Source: Victivallaceae bacterium (GTDB taxonomy: Bacteria; Chlamydiota; Chlamydiia; Chlamydiales; Chlamydiaceae). Taken from it: a stretch of DNA of 64,000 nucleotides. Below the pieces are notes generated by a model. The model saw nothing but the letters and a program-made list of their open reading frames with translations, had not been told where the DNA came from and did no database searches. The stretch is taken from NCBI GenBank assembly GCA_036659455.1, contig JAVXCN010000001.1:121430-185429 (forward strand), given 5' to 3'. Position numbers and translations under genes: made by a program. Positions 7,782 through 37,891 of the stretch are shown here, one piece after another (the stretch's first letter is position 1; every line of letters starts with the position of its first letter).

Positions 7782-10700
7782 TTAAGGTGTAGGGCTGGTG
7801 GCATTTAATCTTACAATCCAATACGAGCATGCGAATATATCCGTCTCTCCTCTCAGCCGATACAGGGCAAGGTAAGTGCTTGTTGAATTGGTAGGTGTAT
7901 CTACGGAAAATGTAGCGCACATTTGTTGCGTCTGATATACTGCGTAACCTCGTGAGTCTCTGCAATTGTTTGTCAAATCAGTGGCTACGCTGTCTCTATA
8001 TAAAGACATGCCCCATGCTCGACCTTCAGGGTCTCTTATATGCCATTGGATATAAACGGTATAGGTGCCTTTTTGTAAAATATTCAGATTTTTGTTGCTG
8101 TTGGTAAGAGTAAAGTAAGAAGTTCTATTTGAAGATTCTTGAACAGTTACGGTTGCATTACCCCATTGCCAATATACGTTCTGGTTTATCCTGGTGGCAT
8201 TGTTTCGTAGTTGTGATACGCAGGAATAATAAGCTATGTTTTTTGACGGTAATTTTGATTGAAAATAAGAATAATTAATAGGATCCTTATATTGTGTAGG
8301 AGTAGGTATCGCTCCGAAACTATTATTCCCGGTTTTTAAAATTCCGGTTATTGGATTTGCTCCTGAAAGAAGGACATAAGATTTGCGGTATTGATCAGCT
8401 GAGATTAACTGATTATCTTGAGCAGCAGTCGGAAGATTTGTGATTTCGAAAGAAGAAGCCATATTGAGATCTCCCGTCATGGTACCACCTGTTAAAGGCA
8501 TGAATTTAAGTTTTTCAGTGTTAAGGGTGGATACAAGGTTATTTAAAGTAGCGCCGTCCGTATCGCTGCTTGCGTCCGTAACTCCCTGAACCCTAAGGTT
8601 ATTTACGGCAACGTTTTGTGCCATGGTACCGCCTGCTATAGGAAGATAGGGGCTCATATATGAATCCATATCTCCTTTATTGAAAAGATCGGTCGGAGAC
8701 GGATTGGTTTTGGACGTAGAGATAGTATGTAAATCCATCCTGAGATTCCCCTCCATCGCTTCTCCAAGAGAGAACAGTGGGTTTGTGGCGGTTTGTACTA
8801 AGGTTGAAAAATTTTCAGTCGTTGCGCCGTCTGTTGGGGCTGTTGCCGGCGCTAAATTCGTAATCGCATTGCCATTCATATCTAAAGTTCCCGTTAATGC
8901 TTTGGAAGCATCGACAAGGAAATAATCAATTGTTTGATTATTGAAAGCATCCGTCATCGTTTTCAAAGATACGGTATTGGCATCAACTAGAGTTCCGGTA
9001 TTCAGGCCTGTAATTTTATGATTATTCATATCTATGGGACCGGTCATAGTACCGCCTGTTTTCGGTAAGAGAAGACTCAGAGAATCTTTAATTTGTTTAA
9101 ATGATACGGCTTGTTGTCCCACGGCTCCCGAGACAGGAAGTCCGATAATTTCCTTATTTGCAAGAGTCATATTGGAGATTAGAGTATTGGATTGATTCGT
9201 ATGCAACATATCGGTTAGAGCATTTAGAGTATCGGATATAGCTTGATTGACTTGACCTAAATTAACAAGTGCGGAACTCGTACCGTTTGCCAAATTATTT
9301 ATGAAATTATTATTGACATTGAAATCTACCGTCATGGTACCGCCTGCTAAAGGAAGATAACGATTGGTCGTTATGTCGGCATCATTTTTGAGTGAAAGGT
9401 AGTTCACGGCTTCCGAATCGGTAGAAGGATTTGATAATCCGGTAATTTTTCCTGTAGAGGATAGAGTTATGGTTCCCGTTATCGGTTTTCCGCTAATCGT
9501 TCCGGATAAAGGAAGATAATTCAAGACGGAAGTATTTAATGTTCCGAGATTCAGAGAATCTTTTGGGTTTACGGGAGGTGCGTTTTGAGTGATTTTCTGA
9601 TTGCTCATCATAATTTCTCCCGTTATGGTACCGCCCGCTAAAGAAAGAAACTTGTTCTCATTCATTGTATCGTTCAAAGTTAAATTATTCAAAAGAGTAG
9701 TGCCTGTTGATATTCCCGTCATTCCCGTAATCTTTTGGTTTCCCATATTCAAATTCGATGTCATTGTTCCTCCGGATTTAGCGATCAAAAGATTTCCGGA
9801 CGAACTTAAAGTTTGCTGAAGATTATTGAGATTGGCTCCGTCGGTTCCGTCAACGGCGTCTCCCGCATTCGTGATTTTATGACTGTTCATGTTAAGATCT
9901 TCTGTTATGACTCTTGAAGAACTTACGGCTATATATTGAGCGTTTATTGATGAAAGATTTTGTAAAAGAGTCGTTTTATTAACGGCATCGGTATCCGATA
10001 CCGGATTTGAAATGCCTGTAATCGTGGCCGTATTAGTAAAGGCTAAATTTCCGGTTATGCTTTGCGTAACTGAAGTTCCCGTAAGCTTAAGATAATCATC
10101 CGAAAGTGTATTGACGTTACGAAGATTAACGGCATCTCCATTGTCAACGGCGTCTCCCGCATTCGTGATTTTATGACCGTTCATATTAAGGTTTCCCGTC
10201 ATACTACCCCCTGTTATCGGAAGATAAGCGGATAACATCATATTCAGATGGATTTTATTAACGGCGTCTTTAAGATTACTCGGTTGATTGTTTTGCGAGA
10301 CGGACGATACGGAAACATCTCCTTGCATAACGGCATTGTTCAGAGGAGTCAATGTACTGGTTTTAGAGATTAAATAGGTGTTTAATGAAGCCAAGTTAGC
10401 TGCATCGGTATCCGATACCGGATTCGCTATCGAAGTTAGTGTGTGTCCGTTCATATCCAAATTTCCGGTCATGGCAATATTTCCGGATAAAGGATATAAT
10501 GTAACATTCGATATCGTGGTTAATAAATTTCTTAATGTTTTTACGTTAACGGCATCGGTATCGTTAACGGGATCGTCGATACCGGAAATGCTTCCGTTGA
10601 CGGTAATAGCTTGTTCGATCGAATTGACGGAAACGGTTGGAAGTCCGCTTAAGGGTATGAGTTTGTCGAATTCGAGTGTCGATAGTTCTGTGTATTTGTT

Positions 10701-11168
10701 ACGATTTATCATATCGCTAGTGTTGATGGAATCTCCTAAATTATTAATAGACAAGCCGTTCATATTTATATTTCCGGTCATAACGGAGCCGTTAAGAGGA
10801 AGGCAATTGGCATAAGAAGTATTTAAACTATTGGTGAAAAATTGAAAATTAACGGCATCCGAAGCAGTTTGAGGTTCTCGAATACCCGTGATTTTTGCCG
10901 TTCCGTTGAATGTAATATTACCTGTAAGCGGTCTTAGCGTAGTCGTTCCTGTTAAAGGAACGGCATTGAGCAGACTCGGATTGGAGTCTATAATCCTATT
11001 GATTTCCTTTTCAACGGAACTTTTATTCATTCCGTTATTGGAATTTAAAGGATTTCCGAGATTAACGATTTTCATGAGATTAAGGTTTAATTTCTGATTT
11101 AACAGGCATACGGGAGGAGAGGCTTTTGTAAGATTTTTATTTATAAGAATTCCTTCTTGTTTTTTCAT
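7782..11168 (-). CDS. 20-repeat tail-fibre-like protein with C-terminal head, member A
   Basis: The protein has 1,128 residues. After a short N-terminus it carries about 20 repeats of 43-55 residues resembling phage tail-fibre repeats, each reading roughly NLNMNGHKITNLxxPVxDTDAVNLxxLxxxxxxYLPLxGGTMTG. The last 145 residues are non-repetitive and include ILQKGTYTVYIQW and a terminal CSYWIVRL. They look like a beta-sandwich head, plausibly C1q/TNF-like; fold identity is inference. There is no signal peptide and no membrane segment. It is third in a leftward operon, 15 bp after member B. AAGGAA sits four bases before ATG 11168. A surface or secreted fibre is likely, though the host or phage origin and the export route are unknown. 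Confidence 0.85.
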   Translation of the reverse strand: MKKQEGILINKNLTKASPPVCLLNQKLNLNLMKIVNLGNPLNSNNGMNKSSVEKEINRIIDSNPSLLNAVPLTGTTTLRPLTGNITFNGTAKITGIREPQTASDAVNFQFFTNSLNTSYANCLPLNGSVMTGNINMNGLSINNLGDSINTSDMINRNKYTELSTLEFDKLIPLSGLPTVSVNSIEQAITVNGSISGIDDPVNDTDAVNVKTLRNLLTTISNVTLYPLSGNIAMTGNLDMNGHTLTSIANPVSDTDAANLASLNTYLISKTSTLTPLNNAVMQGDVSVSSVSQNNQPSNLKDAVNKIHLNMMLSAYLPITGGSMTGNLNMNGHKITNAGDAVDNGDAVNLRNVNTLSDDYLKLTGTSVTQSITGNLAFTNTATITGISNPVSDTDAVNKTTLLQNLSSINAQYIAVSSSRVITEDLNMNSHKITNAGDAVDGTDGANLNNLQQTLSSSGNLLIAKSGGTMTSNLNMGNQKITGMTGISTGTTLLNNLTLNDTMNENKFLSLAGGTITGEIMMSNQKITQNAPPVNPKDSLNLGTLNTSVLNYLPLSGTISGKPITGTITLSSTGKITGLSNPSTDSEAVNYLSLKNDADITTNRYLPLAGGTMTVDFNVNNNFINNLANGTSSALVNLGQVNQAISDTLNALTDMLHTNQSNTLISNMTLANKEIIGLPVSGAVGQQAVSFKQIKDSLSLLLPKTGGTMTGPIDMNNHKITGLNTGTLVDANTVSLKTMTDAFNNQTIDYFLVDASKALTGTLDMNGNAITNLAPATAPTDGATTENFSTLVQTATNPLFSLGEAMEGNLRMDLHTISTSKTNPSPTDLFNKGDMDSYMSPYLPIAGGTMAQNVAVNNLRVQGVTDASSDTDGATLNNLVSTLNTEKLKFMPLTGGTMTGDLNMASSFEITNLPTAAQDNQLISADQYRKSYVLLSGANPITGILKTGNNSFGAIPTPTQYKDPINYSYFQSKLPSKNIAYYSCVSQLRNNATRINQNVYWQWGNATVTVQESSNRTSYFTLTNSNKNLNILQKGTYTVYIQWHIRDPEGRAWGMSLYRDSVATDLTNNCRDSRGYAVYQTQQMCATFSVDTPTNSTSTYLALYRLRGETDIFACSYWIVRLNATSPTP

Positions 11169-11183: not shown

Positions 11184-14100
11184 TTAAGGGGTTATTTGAC
11201 AAATGCTCCAAGACAATCCGTAAACCGGTCTTGTATTCCAATTATTATATAGTTTTATATAGTGGTTATCGGTTCCTGTGGTTATCGGAATCGTGAATAG
11301 AGCAAGACTATATTCGGATAGGCCGCTATATATACTGGTCACGGTTGTTTCGGTTCCGTTTAGAGATAAAATTATACTGCATGTTTTTGTTGCGGTACCA
11401 TGATTACGCGGAACCTCCGTTTCCAGATTAAGTATGAACATATATGTCCCCTTTTGTAATATTCTTAAGGCCGCTTTTTGATATAAAGTCGGAGATGTGA
11501 TATCCTCGATACGGAAAAAGCTTGCGGCATCAAAGGAATCGAAATAAGTGCCCTGTACCAACTCAAAATTTATCGGAGTATTGGTAATAATATTAGTTGG
11601 GGCTGGTCCGTCGGTTAGATAATTATTACTCGTTCTCATTTTATAAGGTATTTGATAGGGGACTAGGATTTCCATAGGGACCGGATTCGTGTTACTCGAC
11701 GGTGTTGTAGTAATTTCGACTTGTCCCAGGGAACTCATATTCATACTTCCCGTCATAGTGCCTCCGGCTAAATTTAGAAGAGGCGGAATATTAGTCTTAA
11801 CGTAACCTAAAGATACGGCTGATAAACTAGTCATCGTAGACGGATTTTTTATATTTTTTACGGAGTTGCTTCCTAAATTTATGCTTTCGGTCATTTGTCT
11901 CGTACCGTCTAGTAATAGATAAGAAGCAAATGTCGTAGAAATATTCGTACTAACGGTGGTGAGATTCGTTAAATCCGAAGAATTCACCGGATTAGCGACC
12001 GATGTAATCTTTTTGTTTCCCATATCAAGCGAACCCGTCATGGTATTTGTCGTAGAAGTTTTAACGTATAAAAGGATTTTCTTGTCTAATGACTGTTTAT
12101 TGACAGCATCCTGATCCGTAGTGGGATCAGCTAAATCAACGACTTTAAAAGTGTTTCCCATATCGATATTTTGATTAACTTGACCTCCGTTAAGTCTGAT
12201 GTATTTATTGTCAAACGTTAAGCCAGTTAAACTTGCTAAGGAAGAAGAGGAGACGGCCGTTTGAACCGGAAGTGTTGAAGTATTATAAAGAGGAAGTCCT
12301 ATTATTTGACCGGCACCGGATAGATTAATGGATCCATTGACGGTTCCTCCTGTTATTGGAAGAAGGGTGTGTTTTGTATTTGTTTCCCGGGTATTCAATT
12401 GTCGAAGGTTAACGGCGTCTGAGTCGTCAGTTGGATTACTTAGGTTGATTATTTTATTATTGTTCATATTTAGATTACCGGTCATTGTATTGGAAACGTT
12501 TTTTTTAACGTAGGGTTCTAAGGAAGCCGTTGCATAAGTTCTAGTGACCGCTGCCGAGTCTACTGATGGTGGTGCCGAATAGTTGTTTTGGATAATTGCA
12601 TGATTGGCGGCATTTATCGGAGCGGTAGTTGTTCCTCCCGTTTTCAAAAGATGATTGGAGAATCCGTTTTGGATTAAGTTATCAGCCTGTGAAGAATTAA
12701 CGGCATCGGTATCGGCAATTCCGTTTTTAACATTCATGACTCGATGTCCGCTCATGTTTATGGGACCGGTCATATTCGGTTTTGGTGTTCCTAGGGGTAA
12801 TAGCAAAGCTTTTTTTTGATTGATTACAGTATCTAAAGCGTCTTGACTAACTATATCCGAATCATCCGTCGTGGTCGTGGTCGTAATTCCGGTGATTTTC
12901 GTTGTGTTCAGTACAATATTTCCTGTCATAGTACTTCCCGCTAACGAAACGAGTAGTGCCGTTTTTTCGTCTAATATCGATTTGTTCACGATATCGGAAT
13001 CCAGAACGGCATTTCCGAGAGCAGTAATTTTAGAGTTGCGCATATTGATATTATCGATTGTATTGGTCGATGCCTTTTTTGCAAAAAGATCCAACCACCG
13101 ATTCATGCTTTGAAGATTAACGGCTTCTCCTTGGGCGGAATAATCCTTCAGATTTATTATTTTTCCTTGAACGGTAAGAGCCCCCGTTAAATCGGAACCT
13201 GTTAGTAACACGTAATTGTTGAAAAAAGATAAGATTTCTGTATTCATAGTATTTTTATTGATTAGATCATTGCCGGTTAACGACGTTTGGCTGAGATTTT
13301 TGATATTATGTGTTCCTAAATTTAAAGAAACTGTCATATTCGGAGTTCCCGATGCATTCAATAAACCGGATAAGGAAGATGCGGTTTCCGATTGCATAAA
13401 TTTGAAATTGACGATATCCGAATTGTTAACGGCATTGGGAATACCCGTAACGGTGGCTCCCGGTGACAACGTGACGTTACCTGTAACAGGATGTCCTGTT
13501 ACGGTTCCGGCAAGAGGAACGAAATTATTCAACAATGTATCGATATATGATTTATTAATGATATCTCCTTCATCCGTTGGATTCGCGGAATTGGTAACAG
13601 TAAAGGAATTATTGAAAGATAACGCTCCCGATAAGCTTCCTCCGGTTTTCGGAAGATATTTGCTGACTTCGGTATTCATTGTATTTAGGTTAACGAGATC
13701 TCTATCGTTAATCGGCGCATCGAGATTGACGATCTTATGGTTATTTAGATTGAAATTCGAAACGATTCCTCCGGTTTTCGGAAGATAATTTGCTAAAACG
13801 TTTTGAGTTTGAGATATAACCTGAGAAAGAGGAACGGCGTGAGTCGTTTCGGTAGGTGTCGCTGTTTTTATGTTAGTAATTTGCTTGGATCCTAAATTTA
13901 ACGAACCGGTCATAGTGCCGCCGAGCAAAGGGAGAAACCCATTAAGAGTTTTGGTGATTTCCAATTCCAGAAATCTTAAATTAACGGCATCATCCGGCTG
14001 AATCGGTGTCGCTAAAGATTTAAGGATATGCGTACCGTCGAAAATGAGATTCCCTGTTATCGGATTTATCTTTGAATTCCCGGTTAAAGGAATATAGGAG

Positions 14101-14573
14101 GCGTTAAGAGCATTCGTTAGCAAGGATTTTAACTCTCCGAATGATAAAGCATCTTCATTGGCATTGGACACAATGTCGGATACGTTATGGGAGTTCATAT
14201 CGATATCTCCCGTCATAATGCCGCCGCTTAATTTTAGATAGGAGGCTTCCGTTTTATTAATCTCGGATTTAAGTTGTCCGAACGGTAAGGCGTCCGTAGG
14301 GTTGGAAGCATTACCGGTATTGATTACGGATGATGTTCCGTTGAATACAAGATCTCCGGTAACGGGTTTAGAAGGTTCCGTTCCTGTTAAAAGAATGAAT
14401 TTTACGGTATTTCCGGCCCCTCCAGTAATAACCGAAATAGTTAACTCAGACACTTGCTTATTGTTCACGCCATCTGCACTATCAATGCCGTCACTGACAT
14501 TTATAATACCATGATTCGTCATGTCCAAAGGCATGTTAACGGAAATTTCCGGAACAGCCTTCAGAGGAGACAT
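11184..14573 (-). CDS. 20-repeat tail-fibre-like protein with C-terminal head, member B (start possibly phase-variable)
   Basis: From ATG 14573 the protein has 1,129 residues, again with about 20 tail-fibre-like repeats and a C-terminal head of ~150 residues (ALRILQKGTYMFILNL; terminal YGLSWSICQITP). ATG 14573 has no ribosome-binding site. A much better start, ATG 14616, has AAGGAT upstream but is followed by twelve A and is out of frame by one base. Removing one A would join it to this frame and add MKKKNSTFKTKASI. As sequenced, the gene may therefore be off or weakly expressed. It is the middle gene of the leftward trio. Confidence 0.85.
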   Translation of the reverse strand: MSPLKAVPEISVNMPLDMTNHGIINVSDGIDSADGVNNKQVSELTISVITGGAGNTVKFILLTGTEPSKPVTGDLVFNGTSSVINTGNASNPTDALPFGQLKSEINKTEASYLKLSGGIMTGDIDMNSHNVSDIVSNANEDALSFGELKSLLTNALNASYIPLTGNSKINPITGNLIFDGTHILKSLATPIQPDDAVNLRFLELEITKTLNGFLPLLGGTMTGSLNLGSKQITNIKTATPTETTHAVPLSQVISQTQNVLANYLPKTGGIVSNFNLNNHKIVNLDAPINDRDLVNLNTMNTEVSKYLPKTGGSLSGALSFNNSFTVTNSANPTDEGDIINKSYIDTLLNNFVPLAGTVTGHPVTGNVTLSPGATVTGIPNAVNNSDIVNFKFMQSETASSLSGLLNASGTPNMTVSLNLGTHNIKNLSQTSLTGNDLINKNTMNTEILSFFNNYVLLTGSDLTGALTVQGKIINLKDYSAQGEAVNLQSMNRWLDLFAKKASTNTIDNINMRNSKITALGNAVLDSDIVNKSILDEKTALLVSLAGSTMTGNIVLNTTKITGITTTTTTDDSDIVSQDALDTVINQKKALLLPLGTPKPNMTGPINMSGHRVMNVKNGIADTDAVNSSQADNLIQNGFSNHLLKTGGTTTAPINAANHAIIQNNYSAPPSVDSAAVTRTYATASLEPYVKKNVSNTMTGNLNMNNNKIINLSNPTDDSDAVNLRQLNTRETNTKHTLLPITGGTVNGSINLSGAGQIIGLPLYNTSTLPVQTAVSSSSLASLTGLTFDNKYIRLNGGQVNQNIDMGNTFKVVDLADPTTDQDAVNKQSLDKKILLYVKTSTTNTMTGSLDMGNKKITSVANPVNSSDLTNLTTVSTNISTTFASYLLLDGTRQMTESINLGSNSVKNIKNPSTMTSLSAVSLGYVKTNIPPLLNLAGGTMTGSMNMSSLGQVEITTTPSSNTNPVPMEILVPYQIPYKMRTSNNYLTDGPAPTNIITNTPINFELVQGTYFDSFDAASFFRIEDITSPTLYQKAALRILQKGTYMFILNLETEVPRNHGTATKTCSIILSLNGTETTVTSIYSGLSEYSLALFTIPITTGTDNHYIKLYNNWNTRPVYGLSWSICQITP

Positions 14574-14656: not shown

Positions 14657-17600
14657 TTATTTATAGATTCCCGATATACTGACTAACGACCAGAGAAAGC
14701 CCTGGAAGGATGTATCGGCGGCAGTCATATTAGTTAAGTAAAGGTAAGCTGAAGAGGGTTCGGTCGAAGATGAAGCCGGAAATTTACAAGGAATCAAAAA
14801 CGACATGGAAGCCTCTGTTAATTGAATAAATTGCCACTGATTTAATACGGCATTGGTTCCATTTAAATAGAAGTTTAGTTGAAGTAAATTTGCAGGGGCA
14901 TTGGTTCTAAAGGAGATCATCAATAAATAGAGAGCTGATGTCGTGAGATACAGTCGAGAATTATTGGGGCCTCCCACTACGTAATCGACGGATGTCGATT
15001 GGAAGCTATATCCTTTTCCGTCCGGTATTAACCAGTTGAGATTGGATGATCTCGGCCAAAGTATACTGGCCGATGTCGTATTGGTCATTAATTTTGAACA
15101 AACGACAGGATCCTTTGCGGTATCCATTATTTGTTTTGTCACCAATTGATTTTCGTTAGCCGGATTGCCCATATTCGTAATTCCGTTTAGTGTAACAGTT
15201 CCGGTTATAGTACCTCCGGTAACCGGAACGTAAGCAGACATAGTCGTTTTCAAAGTAACCAGATTACAAGCATCGGGATCTAAAATAATAGATGGCGATG
15301 CCGTTATCGTATGGTTATTCATATCCAAAGCTCCGGTCATGGTGCCGCCCGCTAACAACAAATATTTAGATGTTTCCGCAGCAATACTTGATTTGACCGT
15401 TTGTAGGTTGCAGCCGTCCGTACCGTTGACGGGAGATTGAAGATTAGTAATTTTAGATCCGTTACTGAAAGTCAATTGCTGCAGCAGAGTGCCACCGGTC
15501 AAAGGAAAACAAGAAGAGGCTGCACTCGTCAATTGTCCGTAATTAACGCCGTCAGTCAAGTCGGTTCCCGAAGCCGAATTAATGACGGTTGAGCCGTTAG
15601 TCAAGGAAAGAGAACTCTCCATAGCTTTACTTCCGTTTTTAGGAAGATAGGTAGCGGCGGTCCGGTTAATCAAGTTCGTCATCGTGTCTAAATTAACGAG
15701 TACATTGTTTGCGGTTGTGCCGGCAACATTCGTTATTTTATAAGAGGCGCTTCCTCCCATTCCTATGGGGCCTTGTAAAGTTGCACCGCTTGTTTTTACA
15801 TAGGAAGCGGCATCGATTGAGTTTACTTTGTCCTTAACTTGCTTGCCGTTTACGGCATCCGTATCGATTGTTCCTTCCGCTAAATTAATAATATTGGATC
15901 CGGTCTGCATATTCAGAACGTCTGTCGTTGGGAGAGTGTTTGTAAATAAAGTACCTCCGGTTTTCGGAAGACATGTAGATGGTTGCGTATCCCAATAAGC
16001 GGCATTGATGATTTCGAACGTTCCTGTCGGTGTCGGTAAGCCATTGATAGGATTTCCGCTCATGTCTAGGTTTCCGGATAGGGAATCCGTTTTGGTACGA
16101 AAATACAGTGCGGACGAAGTCGTTATGCGATTGGTAAGAGTATTTTGATTAATACCGTCAGTTGCGCCGGACGTTGCGATATTAAGGATGTTCTGATTAT
16201 TCATATTAAGCGATCCGGAAAAATTTACTCCTGTCTTCCAAGCACCTAATGCAACGTATTGAGTTGAAAAAAGGTCTAGAGCATCATCCATTTGCTTTTT
16301 ATTAACGGCATCGTTGCCTTGCGTTGAAGGAGATAATCCGGATAACTTTTTAGACGACATATTCAATGTTCCGGTTAACGTCCCTCCGGCTAAAGGAAAT
16401 TTTTTAGCTAACTCCGTTTGCGATTGTTCAAGATTTACGGCATCGGAAGTATTCGTTCCCGAAGCCAAATTTTTGATGCAAGTCGTAATTATTTGCGGTT
16501 GCGTAAAAGCACCTCCGGATAGAGGCATATATTTGGATATTTCATTATTGAATTGATTGAAATTAACTCCATCCGTGTTTGAAGTACCTGCTGTTATTAT
16601 AATATTTTGGTTGCCGGAGTTAAGCGGTCCCTCCATACTTCTGCTTCCGTTTTTAGGAAGGTAATCGATCACGTTTGTATTGATTGCAGTTGTGACCTCG
16701 TTAAAATTTATGGCATCGGTAAGATCCGTTGAAGGAGATAAATTTTTGACGATTTGTCCTCCTGCGTTGATATCTCCATCCAACGGAACGCTTCCATCCA
16801 ATTTGACGTAAGAGGAAAATGCCGAGGAGTTATTATTTTTCAGTTGTAAAAAATTAATGGCTTGAGAGTCGGAAGAAGCCGTTTGAATTCCGGTTAACGT
16901 AGCATTGTTAAAGACTACATTTCCGGTTATCGGTTTTCCGGCAACCGTTCCGGTTAAAGGGATTTTCTCTTGAAATTTAGTGTCTGCGTAATTCTTGTTT
17001 ACGGCATCTTCTGAATTAATCGGAGAGGCGACATCGAAAACCCTATTACCGGTCATATTGATATTTCCCGTTAAAGAGAGAGTACCATCTAACTTAACGG
17101 AATTTATTAAAGCCGTATTTAATTGAGACAAAGTTACGGCATCTTTTGATGAAGTCGCATCGGAAAGATTGGAATAAACGCCGGTTGTCGAAAGAGAGTT
17201 TGTGATGGCGCCTCCGAGTAAAGGAAAATAAGAAGCGGCTAAAGTGTCCGCATTGTCTTTTACGCATTGTAAATTGGCGGCATTGTTGTTTACGGTTGTT
17301 TTAGCAAGGTTGTTTATCGTTAATCCGTTCATGTTAATATTGCCTCCCATAACGGAACCGGATATTTTAAGGTATAAGTCGGAAGCGTTATTGATGCTCT
17401 CGTTTGCATACTCCAGATTAACGATATCGTCATCGTTTGCCGGTTGCGGGATGTCGGTGATTGTTGATGAGGAGAAGATTAAATTTCCTGTAATCGTTTG
17501 TCCGGAACCGTTAGGTCGTAAATAATTTTGCAATGATGACTTCAACGTATTTTCCAAAACTCCTAGAGAAACTGCGGATGTATCACTGGGAGGATTGATC

Positions 17601-18243: not shown

Positions 18244-19038
18244 ATGTTTGAAAGAAGTTTAATAAAATCTCTAACTCCGGATCTTACGGCCAAATGTTTG
18301 ATAGCGAACGATCTTATTGTTAATAATTCATTAACGGCGGAAACCGTTAATTTAAAGGGAAACCTTTCCGTAAACAAGTCCGTATCTGGAGAGACGGACG
18401 TCAGCATAAAACAAAATGCCACGATTAACGGTAAAATCAATATACAAGGAAAAACATCCGTTAACAACGGGCTATTCATGGTGAACGGTTCGACTATCGA
18501 TATGTCCAATCACAAAGTGATTAACGTACCGACACCGACATCTTTATCATCGTCGGATAATACTTTGGCTTGTAATTACGGAATGATGCGTTATCCGGTT
18601 TTTTATTGTAAAACGACGACATACACAACAGAGCAATCGTGGCAGCAAAATACGAGCTTAGCTTGGAAAACAATGACCGGGCGTTTATATCGATCACCGG
18701 GTTTTAATAATTATTTTCGATTCGAAGGTAATAACATCGGTTTAAGATTTTTAAGGCAAGGCACCTATCAGATTAGCGTAGCTATTACTAAAAGACGAAA
18801 ATTAGGCAACGGTTATGGATCTCTTATTTACTTGGAGCAACATGGATTAGGGAAATTAAGTACGCAAAACATATGGAATAAAGGGGGAATTAACCATCAA
18901 GTGTGTTTGGAAGCAACGGTCAGGATCACTTCCTCCAATATCTCGAATGCCGTATTTTATCTCTCACGCGATAATTCAGGAGGACAGATTGTACTTATCT
19001 TGTTCAGTTATTCCATATTAGGATTTCTTGAAAATTAA
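18244..19038 (+). CDS. Short fibre protein with one canonical repeat and a head domain, member 1
   Basis: The protein has 264 residues. The first ~80 carry short beta-rich repeats (GNLSVNKSVSG, ATINGKINIQG). One canonical fibre repeat follows (STIDMSNHKVINVPTP, about residues 83-115), then a C-terminal head of about 145 residues with IGLRFLRQGTYQISVAI and terminal ILFSYSILGF. It is therefore a near head-only relative of the giant fibres. It begins a rightward operon; the next gene starts within ~15 bp. There is no signal peptide. Confidence 0.82.
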   Translation: MFERSLIKSLTPDLTAKCLIANDLIVNNSLTAETVNLKGNLSVNKSVSGETDVSIKQNATINGKINIQGKTSVNNGLFMVNGSTIDMSNHKVINVPTPTSLSSSDNTLACNYGMMRYPVFYCKTTTYTTEQSWQQNTSLAWKTMTGRLYRSPGFNNYFRFEGNNIGLRFLRQGTYQISVAITKRRKLGNGYGSLIYLEQHGLGKLSTQNIWNKGGINHQVCLEATVRITSSNISNAVFYLSRDNSGGQIVLILFSYSILGFLEN

Positions 19039-19052
19039 AGGCGGTGAATATC

Positions 19053-29400: not shown

Positions 29401-32087
29401 GCTGCATAAAGAGGGGTTATTTTAGATAGTTTTAATCGTAACGTTCTGAGATTCATGGCATCCGAAGGAAAAACGGGGTTCGAAAGTCCTCGGATTTTAC
29501 ATGACATATTTCCGTTTAAAGTAATATCGGTAACGAGAGGTGATTTATCAAAAGAAACGGAAATATATTGTTCCAATATTTCTTTACAGGTTTTTAAATT
29601 CACGACATCTTCTTCCGTCTTCGGATCCGGTAATCCTTCGAGGGTGCTTTGCTCGTCAAATATCAGATCCCCTTTTAACTCGGTCATCGAATCGGCTAAT
29701 ATCGGGACCAACGATTCCGAAGTTTTTTTGACGTCAAGGTATCTTACGGCATCATTAGGGTTAACGGGCTCTTTTAAATCGGCAATTTCTAAAACGGAAA
29801 GATTTTTCGTCAATTCGGAACTAATGATATTAGGAGAAGTTTTGATGAACTTATCTATAATATCGACGGTCGAAGCCAGATTAACCGCATCCGAAGCTCT
29901 CATCGGATTTGTCGATGTTTTAACGGTATGAGAAGAATCGAAGTTTAAATCGATTTTGATCCGTTCGGATTGTTTGCCCGATAAATCGATCCCGGTTTTT
30001 AAAAATTTCGACATGAATTTTTTGTTGAACGGTTGTTTTTCATCCGTAGGTTCGGAAATCATGAAAATCCGTCCGTTTTCGAAAACGATGTCTCCTTCAG
30101 CTAAAGTGTTTTCTCCTTTTAACGGTATTAAGGACTGTGTATGCCTTAAAACATCCGATAATATAACAAGATCATAATCCTCTACGGATGACTTTAAGTT
30201 AACGATACGATGTCCGTTCATAACCAAATCCGAAATATTTGTGTCTTCGCTATTTTTAACGAAGGAGGAAGCAAAATCATTAATGCGATCGTTCAATGTT
30301 TTTAAAGATACGATCTCCGTATTTTCAACGGCATCTCCGATTCCTTTGATTCCGTATCCTTCGGAAAACATTAAATCGTTTAAGAAACGAGTCGGGGAAT
30401 TCCCCCGGATAGGGATCATGTCTTTGGTAAAACTGTTGAGAGTATTTAGGGTTAATGCGTCTTTGGGAGCAGTCGGATCGGAAAGTCCGCTTAATCCGAG
30501 ATTACCTTCAAAAATGAAATCTTCATTGAAAAATTCGGTTTTCACGGCTTCTTTGATAGGGATACAATCTTTAAAAGATTGTTTTAAGTAAGCCACGTTA
30601 ATAGCGTCATCGTCGTTTTGGGGATTCGGAATCCTTGTTATTTTTTTATCGTTCAGTATGATGTCTCCATTGACGGTTCCCCCGGTTAAAGGTATGAAAC
30701 CCTCTTTATGAACGGATGCCAATCTTTCGGAAGTCTCTAAATTAACTCCTTCCGTATTTTCAACGGCATCAGCTAGGTTTATAACGGAAAATGAAGAACC
30801 TTGAATATTTCCTTCCATCGGAAGATTATTTTTATGTCCTAGAAATCGAGTAAGATAGGTTTTAATTGTCTTGTTTAAAAAACCGAGAGTGATTGCATCC
30901 GTTTTTTCTTGAGGTTCTCCCAATCGAGAAATACGATGTGTTTTCATATTAAGAGAGTTTTCCAAAACCGTATTTTCGTTAGATAAGTAATCTTGTTGTT
31001 TCACCTTTATCGTTTCTTTGACTTCTCCGTAATTTATTGCTTCGGATTCTAAAGAAGAAGGTTTGATATTCTTGATTTTCTTATTGTTGAAAATAAGATC
31101 TCCGGTTACGGGATTGAAAACTCCGTTACCTTCCGTAGAAATATAAGGAATCAGAATCTTTTTGAGAGTATTTACCGTGAGTAAATCATTATCGTTTATA
31201 GGATCTTTAAGATTAATGATTGAATTATTCCCCATGTCTATTTTTCCGGTAATGATTCCTCCTTTTTTGTGTATCATAAGGTCTTTGTCGTCCGAGTTTC
31301 GAATGAGCTCCGAAGTTTCTCTCATACTAAGAGCGTCGGAAGGCACTTGACTGTCCGGAATGTTCTTAATGACGGAGTGTTTATCTAAATATAGATCACC
31401 GATAAACATTTTTGTATTATCAGACTGTTTCGGATAGTTTGCCGACATTTTTTCAAAGTATCGGCGATTGACTCCGTCATAATCTTCGGAAGGATCTTCG
31501 AGGGAAAGAACGGAGTGGTTTTCGAGACTTAAATGCTCTCGCATGAGAGGTGCATTTTTTGAAATGAAATGCGCAGATATTTCCGTTAATTTATTTTTTA
31601 AATCTTTTACCGTAACGAGATCTCCGTTTTCCAAAGGAGGAGAAGTATTTTTAATCGTGGCCTTACCGTCGAAAATGAGATTACCGAAAACGGTTTCAAT
31701 CTCTCCCGCGTTTAAAGATAGGTAACCGTCTATTGTCTCGTTTAATTGAGATAAAATAATCGGCTCGGAATGTGTGTCGGCTGTTTTATAAGAAAACAAC
31801 GGGTGACTGTTCATGGATAGTCCGGGAATCATCGTTGTTTCATTATTTTTTAAATAAAAACTTTTTCGTTCATTAAGTTTTTTGTTGAATTCCTTCAATG
31901 AAATCGCATCTTCGTCATTTACCGGAGAACCTATATCAGTGATCGTAGACAAACCGTTAAAGACTATATTTCCCGTGACGTTAATACCTTCCGGAGTTCC
32001 TCCGAATGAGAGATAAAGAGGCACGTCTTCGAAACCGGTCCCGGATAACGGATTCGTTTTTTTTCGAATGTTTGTTTTTTCTTTCAT
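26409..32087 (-). CDS. 36-repeat tail-fibre-like protein with C-terminal head, member B
   Basis: The protein has 1,892 residues. AAGGT sits before ATG 32087. The hand partition gives 36 repeats from NIVFNGLSTITDIG to the last unit near residue 1,750. A head of ~140 residues follows (RLFLKTSGFYMFTSSI; terminal DNGWSLVRLSEAYVSDK). It is the middle gene of the leftward trio, 22-40 bp from its neighbours. Repeat spacing and subtype order match members A and C although residue identity is modest. Confidence 0.85.
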   Translation of the reverse strand: MKEKTNIRKKTNPLSGTGFEDVPLYLSFGGTPEGINVTGNIVFNGLSTITDIGSPVNDEDAISLKEFNKKLNERKSFYLKNNETTMIPGLSMNSHPLFSYKTADTHSEPIILSQLNETIDGYLSLNAGEIETVFGNLIFDGKATIKNTSPPLENGDLVTVKDLKNKLTEISAHFISKNAPLMREHLSLENHSVLSLEDPSEDYDGVNRRYFEKMSANYPKQSDNTKMFIGDLYLDKHSVIKNIPDSQVPSDALSMRETSELIRNSDDKDLMIHKKGGIITGKIDMGNNSIINLKDPINDNDLLTVNTLKKILIPYISTEGNGVFNPVTGDLIFNNKKIKNIKPSSLESEAINYGEVKETIKVKQQDYLSNENTVLENSLNMKTHRISRLGEPQEKTDAITLGFLNKTIKTYLTRFLGHKNNLPMEGNIQGSSFSVINLADAVENTEGVNLETSERLASVHKEGFIPLTGGTVNGDIILNDKKITRIPNPQNDDDAINVAYLKQSFKDCIPIKEAVKTEFFNEDFIFEGNLGLSGLSDPTAPKDALTLNTLNSFTKDMIPIRGNSPTRFLNDLMFSEGYGIKGIGDAVENTEIVSLKTLNDRINDFASSFVKNSEDTNISDLVMNGHRIVNLKSSVEDYDLVILSDVLRHTQSLIPLKGENTLAEGDIVFENGRIFMISEPTDEKQPFNKKFMSKFLKTGIDLSGKQSERIKIDLNFDSSHTVKTSTNPMRASDAVNLASTVDIIDKFIKTSPNIISSELTKNLSVLEIADLKEPVNPNDAVRYLDVKKTSESLVPILADSMTELKGDLIFDEQSTLEGLPDPKTEEDVVNLKTCKEILEQYISVSFDKSPLVTDITLNGNMSCKIRGLSNPVFPSDAMNLRTLRLKLSKITPLYAAKNRSNAMRGDLNLEGKKITGIPICKENSDAVNLEFMENYFSSFVPYSSDKEFFCDLNFKNLYTLTDLKEASEKSDVLSLRDLEKITSRYVSYVKNEQSIKMEGNIVCTPKAIINGLSFAESISAPVPLNQLKAIFSTNTFIQTSGGKTEGDLNFGDHGIEGLGRSTLPNSSVTLSELNRKLNDYLSYSGTATGKPLTVNLIFNEFSKIRNIPQAVEDTDLCNLKNLYIETEAIKTRYIVEKDIVCEGDLNMNGKKIQGISDPLDNTDGVNLKTLNTFINDFAAKQSPLPVTLSGPLYLGSSSRIFINKSPINENDAVNTEHAESLINLKKAEIILKNIPSSPEKALHIKGIVTDVGDPVENYDAVNLSSGERIVKEKTDNLIDNNGGIVSGNLIVQGELSGIADPEHDYDAVNLRTLQKAIEALKILLLKNFGGILNGNLQANSFINMGEGVEDTDAIDFPSAFEKTKEIYGNLLSLVAPEINTDLRIANHKITRLAPSEDHFDAVNFGEMLYALETRLPLENRTKEHTIESVWNLNNHTIKGHGDPVTPLEGMNLKILKSSLDTATESLLSSAGTVIGNIDAQGYIFKNMSEAVENKDSVSLKKLRKILSEYIDIRSGIDVLLSSDISAHNHSISLQSEAQEEDDTLTLKDLKLQIEHLNAMIVPKNGSLPMQGNLTIGNLSNLREPTEGSEPVTLTYLNKITEEIKTGFITEDKEDNYSFKNSWQANGNEITNVGFNASNSAGVNLTTLNNIIQDYLSESGGLFSGSLEIQGKVTDLPAPENDDDAANLECLKKETEKTLATLIVADSPLILDTDLTPSAKCRFKDVGYPERYGDATTVEFWKKITDKPFLLKNSETSDTTFRVQKQSYLPWKSSTSNSMYSIGGTFQERLFLKTSGFYMFTSSITVADIKFGMSLDTCLSLELILKNSSVNKILQTVYLSPDSSVCMSSSFKIDIQDPEDPYFLKIKIPLYDCDVYDNGWSLVRLSEAYVSDK

Positions 32088-32128: not shown

Positions 32129-35100
32129 TTAACGTTTAACTTCGCACATCCTAACGATGCTCCACTTCAAAGATGTATAAGAACAGGAATTTGCGTGAGC
32201 ATTTTTCAGTTTGAAGACTTTTGAAGAGTTCGGACTTATTGAAATGACTGCTTGCAAAGTCACTACGTGATTGTCACGGCAAGAAAATGAAGACAATACG
32301 GATAAATTTTGTTGTTCGAAGCTTATTAATTCCGTAACGGTATCTCCCGTCGTAATGCGAGCCGATACGTTAATGAGATAAATTCCCGGGAATAACGGTT
32401 GTAGGGATGTTCCGTCTTCCGAAATCGTAAAAAATCTATCGGCAGGGGAGTTTTGAGCTTTTTTCGACCATACGATATGGTTTCCCGATTCCCAAACGGA
32501 AGTATTTTCGTCTTCGCCGAATAATACCGGTATTTGCGTTAGGGCTTCTATCGATTCCGAAAAGGGAACTAAAGAATCGACTATTCCGGAAGAAGAGACG
32601 TTTGTTATTCGCCGATTATTCATTCGAATATCACCGGCAAGAATCTCTCCTATGTTCTCGTTTCGAGAAACTTTGGACATTTTGACGTAATTCTCAAGTA
32701 ATGATTTGAGATTTTTTAATGAAAGGACCGAATAATCCGATTTGACAAGAGAAGAACGTAATCTATATCCGTTATCGAATGATAAATTTCCTTTTTTTAT
32801 TGTTGTAGTTGTAGTCGTATTACGGATATATTTTTCGGTTTCTTTATTTAAAGTCCCCATATTTAGGGCATCGTCGTCTTGTTGAGGATCCGCTAAGTCA
32901 ATTATGGCATATCCTCCCATATCGACGTCATGATCGAAAGACGTAACGTTTTCCGAAATATAAAAATCGTTCAGAAGTTCCTTCTCTTCGTTCAGCATAG
33001 CTAAATTCAAAAGTTCCGAATCTTCTTCCGGTTTTCCGAGATTGAAGATCCGATGCCCGGAAGCATTCAGAAAATTTATGGAATCTCCGATTCTTGATAT
33101 TCCTTTTTTTGACGATTCATTTAAATATAAACGAGCGAATTTTAAGTTAACTGCATCTCCGTCATTTTCGGGATTACGAATTTGTTTTAATCGACCTTCA
33201 ATATTGAATGTAAGGTCGGTCGATAATTCAATCATCATTCCGTCGTTTTTAACATAGTCTTTGAGATAGGTATTTACGGCGTCTAAGTTCAAACCGTCAT
33301 CGATTTTAACGGGATTCGATAAATTGGAAATAATTGTTTGTCCCATGTCTACATCGGCTTTTATAACGGGAGAGTTTTTCGATAGATATTTTGTGCACTC
33401 TTTTTCTATGTATTTGAGAGCTTGACCTGATTTTACGGCATCTCCATCATCGACGGCATCCGAAAAACCGATCAGTCTCGAATTATCGTCCAAAGATATA
33501 TCTCCTTTGAAGACATGAACGGCCCAATTGGAAAAACCGACTTTTGAATAAACGGTTTCTCTTAAAATGTTTAAATTTACGGCATCTCCGTCATCAACGG
33601 CATTTCCGAGACCCATTATTCGGTTCATACCCAAGTCCAGTGTAGATTCAAGAACATCTTCTTGAGGATTGAATAATTCGTTCTTAGAATCCGTGATTTT
33701 TTTAATCAAAGTTCTTTTATTGACGATGTCGTTAGGTAAAGCCGGATCTTCGATATTTCGAATAGGATGTCTCTGTAAATCCATAGTGCATTGAATGATA
33801 TTGTCGATGTTTGCAAGAATTTTGGATGCTTTTTTTTCATTAATCAATTCGGATAAGCTTCGTAAATTCAATATATGATTCTCGGATGAGGTTGTGATAT
33901 CGGATAGCTTATGTCCCCGGAAATCAATCTGTCCCGTGATAACGTTATCATTGTTCGAAACCATTAAATTCTCGGATTTATAATTATCCGTCAGTTCGAT
34001 AAAGGATAAAAGATTGATGACGTGATCTTCAGTGTTCGGATTACTTATATTTCTCATTCTATGACCGCTTAAACTTAAATTGCCCAAAACGACGGGATTT
34101 AATCGGGAAACCGTTGATGAACTTTCTTGGATAATCATCATTCTGGTTGTTTTGAGATTGATTATCTCGTTGTCTTCAACGGCATCTCCTAAAGACGTTA
34201 TCGTATATTTATTGTCAAAAGTCATATTTCCTTGAAAAGGATGAGATTCGTCATTGCCTTTCAATGACAGATATTGCTCTCCGAATGTTTTGAGATCTCC
34301 GTAGTTGATTGCCGATGAATCGTTCGTTAAATCGACTGCTATCAGATTTTTTGATTTCCCCTTCGAAATTGTAATGGATGATAGAAATTTGGGAGCTTCC
34401 TTTAAGATCCAATGTTTTGTTAAGGAAGAAAGAATCCTTTTTAGACTTCTTAAGTTTACGCCATCTCCGGGAAGTACCGGATCTCCTATATTTTTAATTC
34501 CGGCCCTGTCATCGAACGTCAAATGCGAAGAAATAGGTTTCGAAGCAATCTTATTTAAAAGTAACAGATCCGAACACCTTTCATTCATACTGCTTAATCT
34601 CAATGCTTCATTAAATTCCGTCGGTTTCGGAAGATTTAAGAAAGAAAACCCATTCATGTTTAACGAATAATCGATTATTCCTCCGGATAACGGAATGCAG
34701 GCTTCCGTTTTTTTGAGATCTTCAAAAGCTTTTCCGACAAAACCTAAAGTAAGAATATCTCCGTCGTTAATGGGATCTTTTAGTCCATCCAATATCCCGG
34801 ACCCATTTAACGTTATATTGCTTGTAAAAGGCTTGTTCATCGTCGTTCCCGATAAGGATAATCGTTCCTCGAACAGTTTCTCGGTTTGTTCCAAATTGAC
34901 GACTTCGGTATTGACGGTTGCATTCCTTATTCCCGATACCGTATTCGTATGATTAAACGATAAATCTTGGGAAATAAGATTTTCGGTGACTCCGGCAGTC
35001 TTCAGAAAAGTTTTTTCGCAATGATTTTTTAATGTCTGCAAAGACAGTGCTTCCGTATCTTCGGCCAAGGAAATATTGTTTCTAAAAGCCATGCCGTAAA

Positions 35101-37846
35101 CACGTTTTCCCTGCATGTGCAGCTCGTTGTTAATGCTTCCTCCGGTCAGAGGAAGAAAGAGACCTGAATAATCGGATATGATTTTGTCGGTCTCCTCAAG
35201 ATTGATAAGATCGTAATCGGATGCATGCTTTCCTAAATTCGTAATGGTCGTTGTTTCATTGAATACCAGATCTCCTTCTAAAATGATTTCGGAAGAACTT
35301 TTTTTTAATATATTGTCCTTTAGGGCTTCCGAAAGACTTTTTAAATTAACGGCATCTTTTGCTCTTTGTCCTAATGAAGAAAATGATACCGTATGAATAT
35401 TGTCGAATTTTAAACGACCGCTAATAGGATTTTCCGCTGTCGTTCCGGAAACCGAAAGATATTCGTTTCCTAGAAGTTTTAAGGTTTTTAAATTAACGCC
35501 GTCAAAGTTATTAACCGGATCGGACAGATTGATTATCCTATGATCCGACATATTAACGCGTTCGAGAGGGGTATTTTGAAAAGTGTTTGTCAGATAATCG
35601 TTTAAAAACTTCAAATTGATGGCGTCTCCTTCATGTTTCGGTTCAGGTAGACCTGTTGTTGTATTTGAACCTTTAATGACGATATCCGAACCTATAACAA
35701 CTCGATTTTCGGAATTTTCGTTTTTTATTAGGAAAAAGGATAATTTTTTCAGGTTTTCCATTGTCGCCAAATCCGACTCTTCCGAAGCTTGCATCAAATT
35801 TTTAATAAAATAACCTTCTTTAAAACTAAACTTTCCTTTTACGGGATTTTTAAGAGTTCCTTTTATGGAAACATACTTTGTTAACTCTTCATTAAAGTAT
35901 TTAAGATTAATCGCGTCAGTTTCCGAAGCCGGGTTGTTCATAAAGCGTATGTTTTGCAAATCGACATCTAAATCGGATTTTAATGCTCCGCCTTTTATAG
36001 GTAATTTTCCGATAAAAGTTTCCGATAGGATTTGGTTTAAACTTTTTAAATTAACGGCATCTTGATCGAAAACAGGCGATAAATTGGTTTTGATCTTATG
36101 AATACCGTCGAAGACAAGATTTATTGTAAGAGGAGATTTACCCGGAATGACAACGTTTGCAAAAATTTCATGGAACGTTTCCAAGTGGGTAATGTCGTTA
36201 TCTTCTTGGGGACTTCTAAATCCGGTAACGGTATGATTACTGTCGAAAATCAAAGAACCCGAAAAAATTTTTTTTTTCGGAAATTCCATATTCAGTCGTT
36301 CTTTAACGAATTTTAAATTAACGATATCGTTATCACCGGAAGGCTCTCCCAGATTAACTATTTTATTATTATTTAGGTCTAAAGCCCCTTCAAAGACTCC
36401 TCCTTGTTTGTTTAGTAGTTTTTTTGATTCCTGAAGCAGAAGTTTTTTTAGTGTTCGTATGTTAATCAAACCTTTTTCGTTAATGGGATCTCTAAGATTA
36501 ATGATTTTATGATCATTAAGATTCATATTGCCTTTCAGAGAAAAACCGTTGACGGTTACATAGAGTTTTTTTTCCTCATCAAGGAGAACGTTCAATCGTT
36601 CGACGGAAATCATATCTTCCTGTTCTTGAGAATTTGAAGGAAGATTCGAACATATTTTCTCGTTCAAATCGAAATCGCCTTCGGATACGGATCGATCTCT
36701 TCTAATGCAAAAATCATTGAAGTAATCCGAACACATTTTGTTAAAAACTTTACGAGATACAATCTCGGATTGATCTTTGGCGTCCCTGAAATTTTTTATC
36801 GTTGAAAAATGATTAAAGACTAGGGAAGAATTCAAAACGGAATTTTTTTTCGTTCCGGTTAAAGGAACGAGAAAAGGCAGTTCATCTATAATTTGCTGCA
36901 AGATAACTCCATCTCCATCGGTAACTCCTTTTCCGACATTAACTATTCCTTGGTTGTTCATATCAAGAATTTTATGGAAAATTCCTCCTGTTTTTAAAAG
37001 AAATTCCTCTTTTCTTTTTTGGAGAGATTCATTGACAAATCGACGATTGATGGCATCGGAGTTCGTTATCGGATCTTTTAATCCCGTTAAGCGTCTTCCT
37101 TGTTTTAAAATTCTGTTGCCTTCGATAGGTGAGTTTTTATTGTTTCCGGAATAGGAAATATAATCGATAAATAAACTACGTACGGTTCTAAGATTGACAG
37201 CATCCTCGTCTTTTTCAGGATCCGCCAAATCTATGATTTTATGATTATTCATCTCGATATTCGTATTTAACTTTTTATCGGAAAGAGATAAGTAAAGGCC
37301 CTTTTTTCCCTCGAGCAATTCATTAAGCACTTTCAAATTGATCGGATCATCGGATTCTAAGGCAGCCGCTATATTTTTTATCGTGTAATTTCCGTTGAAA
37401 TTTAATGAAGAAGAGATTGGGTTCGAAGAGGAATTTCCGGAAGAAGCAATAAGAACGGTATTGAGGTGATTCAGTTGTGATAAAGTAACGGCATCGAAAT
37501 TTTCAATTCCTTCACCGACTCCGAATATTTTACCTGATATTAGAGATAAGGGACCTTCCGTTTCGGCGGATTCCTTAAATATAAATTTCCCTTCCAGATC
37601 ATCATCTATGGCGTTTTTGACTTGTTTGAAATTAACAATTTCATTATCTGCTTTTGCTTCCGATATCCCCGTGATTTTATGTGTGCCGTCGAAAACTAGA
37701 TTTCCTGAAACGGGATATTCCGGTAATGTTCCTCTAAGAGAAATGTAAGTTTCTATGTTTTTTTCGAGTTGTCGGAGTTCGGCTCGAAGATATCTTTTCT
37801 CTGTCGTAGTGTCTCCTTTTTTGTTTTTTTTTGTGTTTTTGATCAT
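32129..37846 (-). CDS. 36-repeat tail-fibre-like protein with C-terminal head, member C
   Basis: I chose ATG 37846 (MIKNTKKNKKGD), which has AGGA six bases upstream. The longer frame from ATG 37891 has no ribosome-binding site. From 37846 the protein has about 1,905 residues, close to its partners. About 36 repeats run from NLVFDGTHKITGIS, followed by a head of ~140 residues (LQPLFPGIYLINVSAR; terminal TSLKWSIVRMCEVKR). It is the first gene of the leftward 36-repeat operon, divergent from the RluA-type gene across an AT-rich gap. Confidence 0.85.
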   Translation of the reverse strand: MIKNTKKNKKGDTTTEKRYLRAELRQLEKNIETYISLRGTLPEYPVSGNLVFDGTHKITGISEAKADNEIVNFKQVKNAIDDDLEGKFIFKESAETEGPLSLISGKIFGVGEGIENFDAVTLSQLNHLNTVLIASSGNSSSNPISSSLNFNGNYTIKNIAAALESDDPINLKVLNELLEGKKGLYLSLSDKKLNTNIEMNNHKIIDLADPEKDEDAVNLRTVRSLFIDYISYSGNNKNSPIEGNRILKQGRRLTGLKDPITNSDAINRRFVNESLQKRKEEFLLKTGGIFHKILDMNNQGIVNVGKGVTDGDGVILQQIIDELPFLVPLTGTKKNSVLNSSLVFNHFSTIKNFRDAKDQSEIVSRKVFNKMCSDYFNDFCIRRDRSVSEGDFDLNEKICSNLPSNSQEQEDMISVERLNVLLDEEKKLYVTVNGFSLKGNMNLNDHKIINLRDPINEKGLINIRTLKKLLLQESKKLLNKQGGVFEGALDLNNNKIVNLGEPSGDNDIVNLKFVKERLNMEFPKKKIFSGSLIFDSNHTVTGFRSPQEDNDITHLETFHEIFANVVIPGKSPLTINLVFDGIHKIKTNLSPVFDQDAVNLKSLNQILSETFIGKLPIKGGALKSDLDVDLQNIRFMNNPASETDAINLKYFNEELTKYVSIKGTLKNPVKGKFSFKEGYFIKNLMQASEESDLATMENLKKLSFFLIKNENSENRVVIGSDIVIKGSNTTTGLPEPKHEGDAINLKFLNDYLTNTFQNTPLERVNMSDHRIINLSDPVNNFDGVNLKTLKLLGNEYLSVSGTTAENPISGRLKFDNIHTVSFSSLGQRAKDAVNLKSLSEALKDNILKKSSSEIILEGDLVFNETTTITNLGKHASDYDLINLEETDKIISDYSGLFLPLTGGSINNELHMQGKRVYGMAFRNNISLAEDTEALSLQTLKNHCEKTFLKTAGVTENLISQDLSFNHTNTVSGIRNATVNTEVVNLEQTEKLFEERLSLSGTTMNKPFTSNITLNGSGILDGLKDPINDGDILTLGFVGKAFEDLKKTEACIPLSGGIIDYSLNMNGFSFLNLPKPTEFNEALRLSSMNERCSDLLLLNKIASKPISSHLTFDDRAGIKNIGDPVLPGDGVNLRSLKRILSSLTKHWILKEAPKFLSSITISKGKSKNLIAVDLTNDSSAINYGDLKTFGEQYLSLKGNDESHPFQGNMTFDNKYTITSLGDAVEDNEIINLKTTRMMIIQESSSTVSRLNPVVLGNLSLSGHRMRNISNPNTEDHVINLLSFIELTDNYKSENLMVSNNDNVITGQIDFRGHKLSDITTSSENHILNLRSLSELINEKKASKILANIDNIIQCTMDLQRHPIRNIEDPALPNDIVNKRTLIKKITDSKNELFNPQEDVLESTLDLGMNRIMGLGNAVDDGDAVNLNILRETVYSKVGFSNWAVHVFKGDISLDDNSRLIGFSDAVDDGDAVKSGQALKYIEKECTKYLSKNSPVIKADVDMGQTIISNLSNPVKIDDGLNLDAVNTYLKDYVKNDGMMIELSTDLTFNIEGRLKQIRNPENDGDAVNLKFARLYLNESSKKGISRIGDSINFLNASGHRIFNLGKPEEDSELLNLAMLNEEKELLNDFYISENVTSFDHDVDMGGYAIIDLADPQQDDDALNMGTLNKETEKYIRNTTTTTTIKKGNLSFDNGYRLRSSLVKSDYSVLSLKNLKSLLENYVKMSKVSRNENIGEILAGDIRMNNRRITNVSSSGIVDSLVPFSESIEALTQIPVLFGEDENTSVWESGNHIVWSKKAQNSPADRFFTISEDGTSLQPLFPGIYLINVSARITTGDTVTELISFEQQNLSVLSSFSCRDNHVVTLQAVISISPNSSKVFKLKNAHANSCSYTSLKWSIVRMCEVKR

Positions 37847-37891
37847 ATGGATTCCTATGGTTAACCGATTTTCGTTTCCGAAATCGGTCAT

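Follow-up and report, generated by a model that had tools for sequence, protein, structure and literature searches.

The locus described here raises the question of why a chlamydial genome should carry, side by side, three sets of three genes for fibre-like proteins whose repeat numbers match within each set, and what the three chains of a set may build. The genes are located in a 64,000-nucleotide stretch (the window) of the genome of a Victivallaceae bacterium classified within the Chlamydiaceae (assembly GCA_036659455.1, contig JAVXCN010000001.1, positions 121,430 to 185,429 of the forward strand). The nine genes can be considered three operons coding for stalked proteins of the Chlamydiaceae, and the chains of each operon likely assemble in a 1:1:1 ratio as a C1q-like heterotrimeric fibre whose predicted destination, by secretion, is the vacuole housing the bacteria. 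Although unproven, a fibre with one chain from each class is the interpretation that we favour. The repeat counts are confirmed, the short set was already known, and the giant sets are new variants that represent additions at the same locus.

Repeat counts, repeat type and predicted heads

The nine open reading frames (ORFs) are organized, as the initial annotation had stated, in three runs of three with a single strand per run: A3-A2-A1 (nucleotides 7782-18040, minus strand), S1-S2-S3 (18244-20605, plus strand) and C3-C2-C1 (20665-37891, minus strand), with intergenic gaps of 5 to 83 nt within the runs (Table 1). The repeats have a mean period of 48 residues and were counted with an iterated profile hidden Markov model (HMM), which found 20/20/20 in set A, in agreement with the earlier count by hand, and 36/35/36 in set C instead of the 36/36/36 obtained by hand. 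A profile retrained on relatives and used with a stricter cut rendered 19/20/20 and 36/35/35, respectively. Repeat 36 of C2 is degenerate, with -4.0 bits in the first profile and 1.0 bit in the second (a value reached by 3 of 200 shuffles), and it rests on spacing: room for it has been kept, as 199 residues are found past the last recognised repeat compared to 140 in C1 and 154 in C3. The single canonical repeat that had been attributed to each short protein is recognisable in all three but partial in S1 and S2, and looser counts are 2/1/2.

Chains of the same set are only 25-31% identical. Given this low identity, together with a likeness between repeats of the same index that is weak at best, recent gene copying, which the initial annotation had already held unlikely as the source of the equal lengths, was rejected. 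The same-index residue similarity corresponds to z values of 0.3, 2.5 and 2.7 for the pairs of set A (the last two for A1-A3 and A2-A3) and -0.6, -0.5 and 2.1 for those of set C, and the same-index repeat was the best match in only 0-2 of 20 cases in A and 0-1 of 36 in C. In set A the linkers at equal index agree in length (permutation P 0.0002, 0.0026 and 0/5000), and the core lengths do not (P 0.28-1.0). Whole spacings in this set also match (P <=0.0008), including when the unusual first spacing was dropped (P 0.017, 0.013 and 0/10000). Set A could therefore have descended from one 20-repeat gene or have its register held by layer-wise pairing, two cases that the test cannot separate. In set C only the repeat count is kept.

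The repeats had been described as of a trimer-forming kind, and Pfam T7 tail fibre or YadA stalk matches above the curated cut-offs were found in A2, A3, C2 and C3. The scores for the T7 tail fibre family PF03906 (cut-off 25.2 bits) were 45.5 bits for A2, 41.8 for C2 and 27.8 for C3, with A1 (13.7) and A3 (18.9) below the cut-off and no match for C1, S1, S2 and S3 in the Pfam scan. The YadA stalk motif was above its cut-off in A2, A3 and C3, A1 matched a PHROG tail fibre family (2.7e-18), and the triplet profile matched the head of BadA (E 2.5e-4). A profile search against PDB gave weak phage fibre matches (4.6e-4 to 1.3e-3) followed by unrelated rows, e.g. vicilin (0.043), and a direct PDB sequence search with A2 found no match. 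Bactofilin matches of S1 and S3 fell below the cut-off and were discarded. Pfam scans of the nine proteins showed no collagen family, the stalk being a 48-residue repeat of another kind, and no membrane anchor or YadA anchor barrel family; a hydropathy analysis detected in none of them a hydrophobic stretch resembling a signal peptide or membrane segment (highest 19-residue mean, 1.40).

Structures were predicted for single chains. The models of S2 and A1 have a head with the C1q/TNF jelly-roll fold, so the likeness to C1q, which had been put forward as an analogy, is more literal than intended. The chlamydial protein Pgp3 was not among the 50 structural matches listed for either model.

Relatives of the short set and a second locus

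The initial annotation knew of no described chlamydial system of this shape. This is not supported, as the short set is the CT142-CT143-CT144 operon, and a second locus, which we take to be that of Pls1, Pls2 and CT051, carries the same repeats. Judged by profiles, tree and gene order, S1-S3 are orthologous to CT142-CT143-CT144, with S3 assigned less firmly. With a profile made from S1-S3, gene runs coding for proteins of about 280 aa each were found elsewhere in the family, and the flank of the window (UbiX, YitT, SurE, TtcA-like and SEC-C) precedes these runs in 8 of the 9 relatives' loci displayed. In the remaining one (G007) the SEC-C gene is the sole shared flank gene, and kinase-like and DNA-ligase-like genes, presumably CT145 and CT146, are located downstream. 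The SEC-C gene stands before the run in all relatives' loci examined, including that of G009, where the run is doubled and two genes are split. The G009 locus (L087 3988-9401) consists of a tandem unit in the order 1-2-3-1-2-3, with class 1 divided into two frames in one copy and class 3 likewise in the second. The short-set profile also matched C1:604898-605095 of the window's own genome (C1 being here a contig and not the chain), a match rejected because it falls in a gene that we take to be LpxA-like.

Profiles for classes 1 to 3 were built by gene position. S1 scored 61.6 bits with class 1 versus 25.3 and 9.6 with the other two, and S2 scored 60.7 bits with class 2 versus 1.6 and 3.5. S3 is ambiguous: the whole protein scored 35.5 bits with class 2 and 34.4 with class 3, its head alone scored 30.1 with class 3 versus 25.3 with class 2, and class 2 was slightly ahead in a profile-profile alignment. 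A tree of 57 sequences includes three clades in which S1 groups with class 1 (100/99), S2 with class 2 (96/87) and S3, not firmly, with class 3 (86/49); the window's sequences have long branches, for which the program gives a warning of possible spurious joins. Leave-one-out class assignment was correct in 54/54 cases (18 genomes; G009 and G013 left out). In G017, the peptides used to raise CT142 antibodies (PMC5473537) are present in the class-1 protein, two of the three exactly and the third with 14/15, all of them at the published positions. Therefore class 1 corresponds to CT142, and classes 2 and 3 follow by order. The Chlamydia trachomatis genes share with S1-S3 the locus, the order, the three chain classes and lengths near 280 aa; they have been described as one short set, to which the window adds two giant ones, with 20 and 36 repeats. 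The available parts of PMC5473537 do not mention the fold or trimer state of CT142-CT144. A literature search, largely without subscription journals, returned no paper on a CT143 crystal structure or on CT143 together with C1q, and none on a phage tail fiber repeat in Chlamydia.

The triplet profile (E up to 1e-6) matched 22 of 232 genomes of the class, which are all 22 of the family, and none of the other 210; completeness is 90% or more for 137 of the 232. Apart from the Clavichlamydia-like G021, the 21 genomes (the window's own and 20 relatives) carry all three genes, class 1 of G013 being cut by contig ends. Three distinct chain classes were found in 20/20 Chlamydia- and Chlamydiifrater-like genomes (genus names inferred), the tree shows the short set kept across three genera, and by sequence the unit of three distinct chains predates the split of the genera. 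Among six named outgroup chlamydial loci, five have the SEC-C gene and none matched the triplet or repeat profiles in the 0.2 to 5 kb covered downstream of it.

The window's genome includes four further genes of the family with 4/4/4/4 repeats in alternating orientation (L030 4628-9931), located between a hemN-like and a yraL-like gene. From the gene order, we take this locus to be that of CT049 (Pls1), CT050 (Pls2) and CT051, the names of the two border genes being presumptive as well. Among the 14 stretches of this Pls type examined, three family genes are found in six and two in another six, the window's own genome has four, and for one stretch the border gene was not found. The relatives' repeat counts at this locus are 1-5, usually 3, and only some loci have the same count in every gene. 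Elsewhere, a lone member of the family with three repeats (L031 4518-6152) is flanked by genes presumably of the glnQ-like and AsmA/TamB-like kinds, and a counterpart is found at the same place in L038 and L040. The Pls-type locus has in common with the nine genes the tail-fibre-type repeats and differs from them in that the stalks are short, there are inserts rich in proline, one gene is on the opposite strand and the number of genes is two to four, depending on the species. Pls1 and Pls2 are inclusion-lumen proteins found in globular structures (PMC6717882), and Pls1-3 have been reported to be unrelated to Pmps, contrary to their name (PMC11166332). We agree that the label 'Pmp-like' misleads for the Pls proteins. 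A Pmp autotransporter was also discarded for the proteins under study, as no Pmp or autotransporter Pfam family was found in the nine of the window (E up to 1) or in ten relatives (E up to 0.1).

Assembly of the chains

A mechanism can be proposed in which the three chains of one operon share one trimer. Each chain is predicted to end in a C1q/TNF-fold head (the models of S2 and A1 show one), borne by a stalk whose 48-residue repeats are of the type found in phage tail fibres and the YadA neck, and each layer of the stalk would take one repeat per chain. A change in the repeat number of one chain would then leave unpaired repeats in the other two, so that counts would be held equal; a shared trimer would thus account for both the joint keeping of the three classes and the matching counts. 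In the window's genus the result would be short, medium and long fibres, each with a three-faced head of its own. That the chains are secreted to the inclusion lumen is predicted from the properties of CT142, CT143 and CT144, which are encoded in a common operon, are secreted to the inclusion lumen and co-localise there in globular structures (PMC5473537). Regulation by sigma 54 has been listed as direct for CT050, CT051 and CT142-CT144 and as indirect for CT049 (PMC7482065), and a sigma-66-type promoter was found for ct142 (PMC5473537). A bolder formulation, about which our confidence is evenly divided, is that the Chlamydiaceae possess a bacterial counterpart of C1q, i.e. obligate A-B-C heterotrimers with three jelly-roll heads on a stalk of phage-tail-fibre repeats in the vacuole lumen, and that in the window's genus an ancestral short trimer gained medium and long versions whose equal lengths were kept by layer pairing. 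The stalk of complement C1q, which is made of A, B and C chains, is collagen, unlike the 48-residue tail-fibre-type repeat of the proteins described here, and no shared descent is claimed.

Several observations weigh against mixed trimers. Phage fibres and BclA, the collagen-stalked protein of the Bacillus exosporium filaments, are homotrimers, and the location of BclA on the spore surface sets it further apart from the present system. Pgp3, which is comparable as a trimer secreted by Chlamydia and has a TNF-like domain at its C-terminus and motifs of trimeric viral proteins at its N-terminus, is a homotrimer of a single gene product with this kind of fold (PMC10367112). No specific interaction among CT142, CT143 and CT144 has been detected so far (PMC5473537), and in assays with reporter fusions CT143 and CT144 were 'secreted' into the host cytosol and CT142 only 'possibly' (PMC12671076), which means that the three proteins may travel separately and may not remain in the lumen. 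The stalk was predicted at low confidence in the models of both S2 and A1, and its fold is thus unproven. In set C neither linker (P 0.72-0.76) nor core lengths match index by index. Neither profiles nor profile-profile comparison placed the heads of A and C in the three classes; in the latter, A2 went to class 1 at 71% and the rest stayed at about shuffle level, and the A2 head perhaps belongs to class 1. In relatives, the short triplets are not strictly equal in length (spread of 1.1-15.9% among 18 genomes, taking the longest frames), and the gene number at the Pls-type locus varies by species between two and four. G021 has no triplet at the SEC-C locus; elsewhere in it, repeat counts are 13/13/27 in a run of three neighbouring genes (11/13/27 by the first profile) and 17/21 in a neighbouring pair (15 and 16 by the first profile). 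The initial annotation, which had suggested a search of other Chlamydiota for equal triplets and would have counted unequal numbers in relatives against itself, is therefore upheld as to the three classes, present in 20/20 genomes, and contradicted in part by G021 and by the variable Pls-type locus.

Other features were observed in G021. A 16-repeat gene is located 8 kb upstream of the 17/21 pair, and the adjoining 13-repeat genes (L026 2341-7342), beside the 27-repeat gene, have similar spacing patterns. A single open frame of ~8614 aa with ~185 tail-fibre-type repeats is found at C3:66000-105999 (L028/L029), and a tandem family of ~700-1100 aa proteins with alike N-termini lies upstream of fibre genes (L139 1-19999). 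The terms fibre, fiber, phage and YadA do not occur in the text of PMC10448858, cited for Ca. Clavichlamydia salmonicola.

The homotrimeric state common for this fold leads to an alternative in which each operon produces three parallel homotrimers, their heads diversified for variety of antigen or ligand and their equal counts inherited from an old whole-gene triplication and kept since fibre length is selected. The failure to detect interactions (PMC5473537) is in line with this explanation, and the matched linkers of set A as well as the weak same-index similarity of A1-A3 and A2-A3 fit one 20-repeat ancestor. We nevertheless consider it unlikely, if a serious competitor, as it leaves unexplained the keeping of three classes in 20/20 genomes and the copying of the whole unit in G009, and the count in set C has been kept although the same-index signal is nearly gone. 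A different proposal concerns the place of the fibres and is compatible with mixed trimers: they could be trimeric surface adhesins of the infectious form that bind the host cell in the manner of trimeric autotransporter adhesins. The giant lengths would suit reach, and both the YadA stalk motif and the match to the BadA head point in this direction; on the other hand, the nine proteins have no hydrophobic segment and no Pfam anchor family, a C-terminal head without a barrel is predicted in S2 and A1, and the orthologues were found in the lumen, outside the bacteria (PMC6717882). Surface adhesins are for these reasons rather improbable, and a type Vc autotransporter adhesin was rejected on account of the lack of a hydrophobic N-terminus and of an anchor family and of the jelly-roll C-terminus.

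The repeat unit is also shared with phage tail fibres of the T7 gp17 type, and the PHROG match of A1 and the Pfam T7 tail fibre matches of A2, C2 and C3 could be taken as signs of a phage or tailocin remnant, i.e. of prophage tail fibres. The neighbourhood makes this very improbable: most flank ORFs for which Pfam gave a match are housekeeping genes (UbiA, SurE, G6PD and CTP synthase, with adenylate kinase identified by comparison), and no phage structural genes were found in the flank ORFs scanned, which are part of those of the window. Furthermore, S1-S3 match no PHROG, and the short set has been kept across three genera. Three flank proteins match PHROGs of unknown function and two flank ORFs match nothing. 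The absence of phage structural families in the scanned flank and of an autotransporter barrel in the window proteins is what distinguishes the nine genes from the phage fibres and YadA stalks with which they share the repeat. Mixed trimers with one chain of each class remain our preferred interpretation.

Features of the window and significance

Set A lies between the SEC-C gene and the short set (Table 1). Within A1, two 60-nt stretches (9849-9908 and 10143-10202) are 88% alike, and A1 and A3 share a 40-nt pair (9473 and 16921) that is also 88% alike; these are perhaps traces of local exchange between repeats. Scans for regulatory signals showed no excess over expectation: 11 hairpins versus 12.6 in shuffles, including the one after S3, 11 sigma-54-type sites versus 11.6 expected, and 42 sigma-70 promoters versus 42.2 expected. 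A protein encoded by nucleotides 47497-48183 has a PI3K C2-like Pfam match of 23.8 bits, under the cut-off of 26.4.

Table 1. Coordinates of the nine genes and associated features in the window.
Feature	Position	Strand	Length (aa)	Basis
SEC-C motif gene, left syntenic border	6060..6470	+		PF02810; precedes short triplet in 17/17 relatives' loci
A1, giant chain, 20 repeats and C-terminal head	7782..11168	-	1128	Profile HMM; head predicted C1q/TNF-like
A2, giant chain, 20 repeats and head	11184..14573	-	1129	PF03906 8.4e-12, PF05662 1.8e-8
A3, giant chain, 20 repeats and head; first gene of A run	14657..18040	-	1127	PF05662 1.9e-14
S1, short chain, CT142 orthologue by sequence, class 1	18244..19038	+	264	Class profile and tree
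S2, short chain, CT143 orthologue by class, class 2; predicted C1q/TNF-like head	19044..19856	+	270	Class profile, tree and model
S3, short chain, probable CT144 orthologue, class 3	19874..20605	+	243	Profile, tree (not firm), position
Terminator-like hairpin, 10 pairs, 3' of S3	20615..20638	+		Consensus match only
C1, giant chain, 36 repeats and head	20665..26385	-	1906	Profile HMM
C2, giant chain, 35 recognised repeats and one degenerate, and head	26409..32087	-	1892	PF03906 1.2e-10
C3, giant chain, 36 repeats (stricter count 35) and head; first gene of C run	32129..37891	-	1920	PF05662 3.4e-7, PF03906 2.3e-6

According to PMC6717882, the lumen proteins CT142-CT144 and Pls1/Pls2 have no known function, and it is unclear how the Pls proteins are secreted. 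The predicted fold and the predicted 1:1:1 stoichiometry make the question testable with purified protein. If the mixed trimers are true, an equal repeat number would be a sign, readable from sequence alone, of which chains are partners, and the short, medium and long sets would represent a ladder of fibre lengths within one genome.

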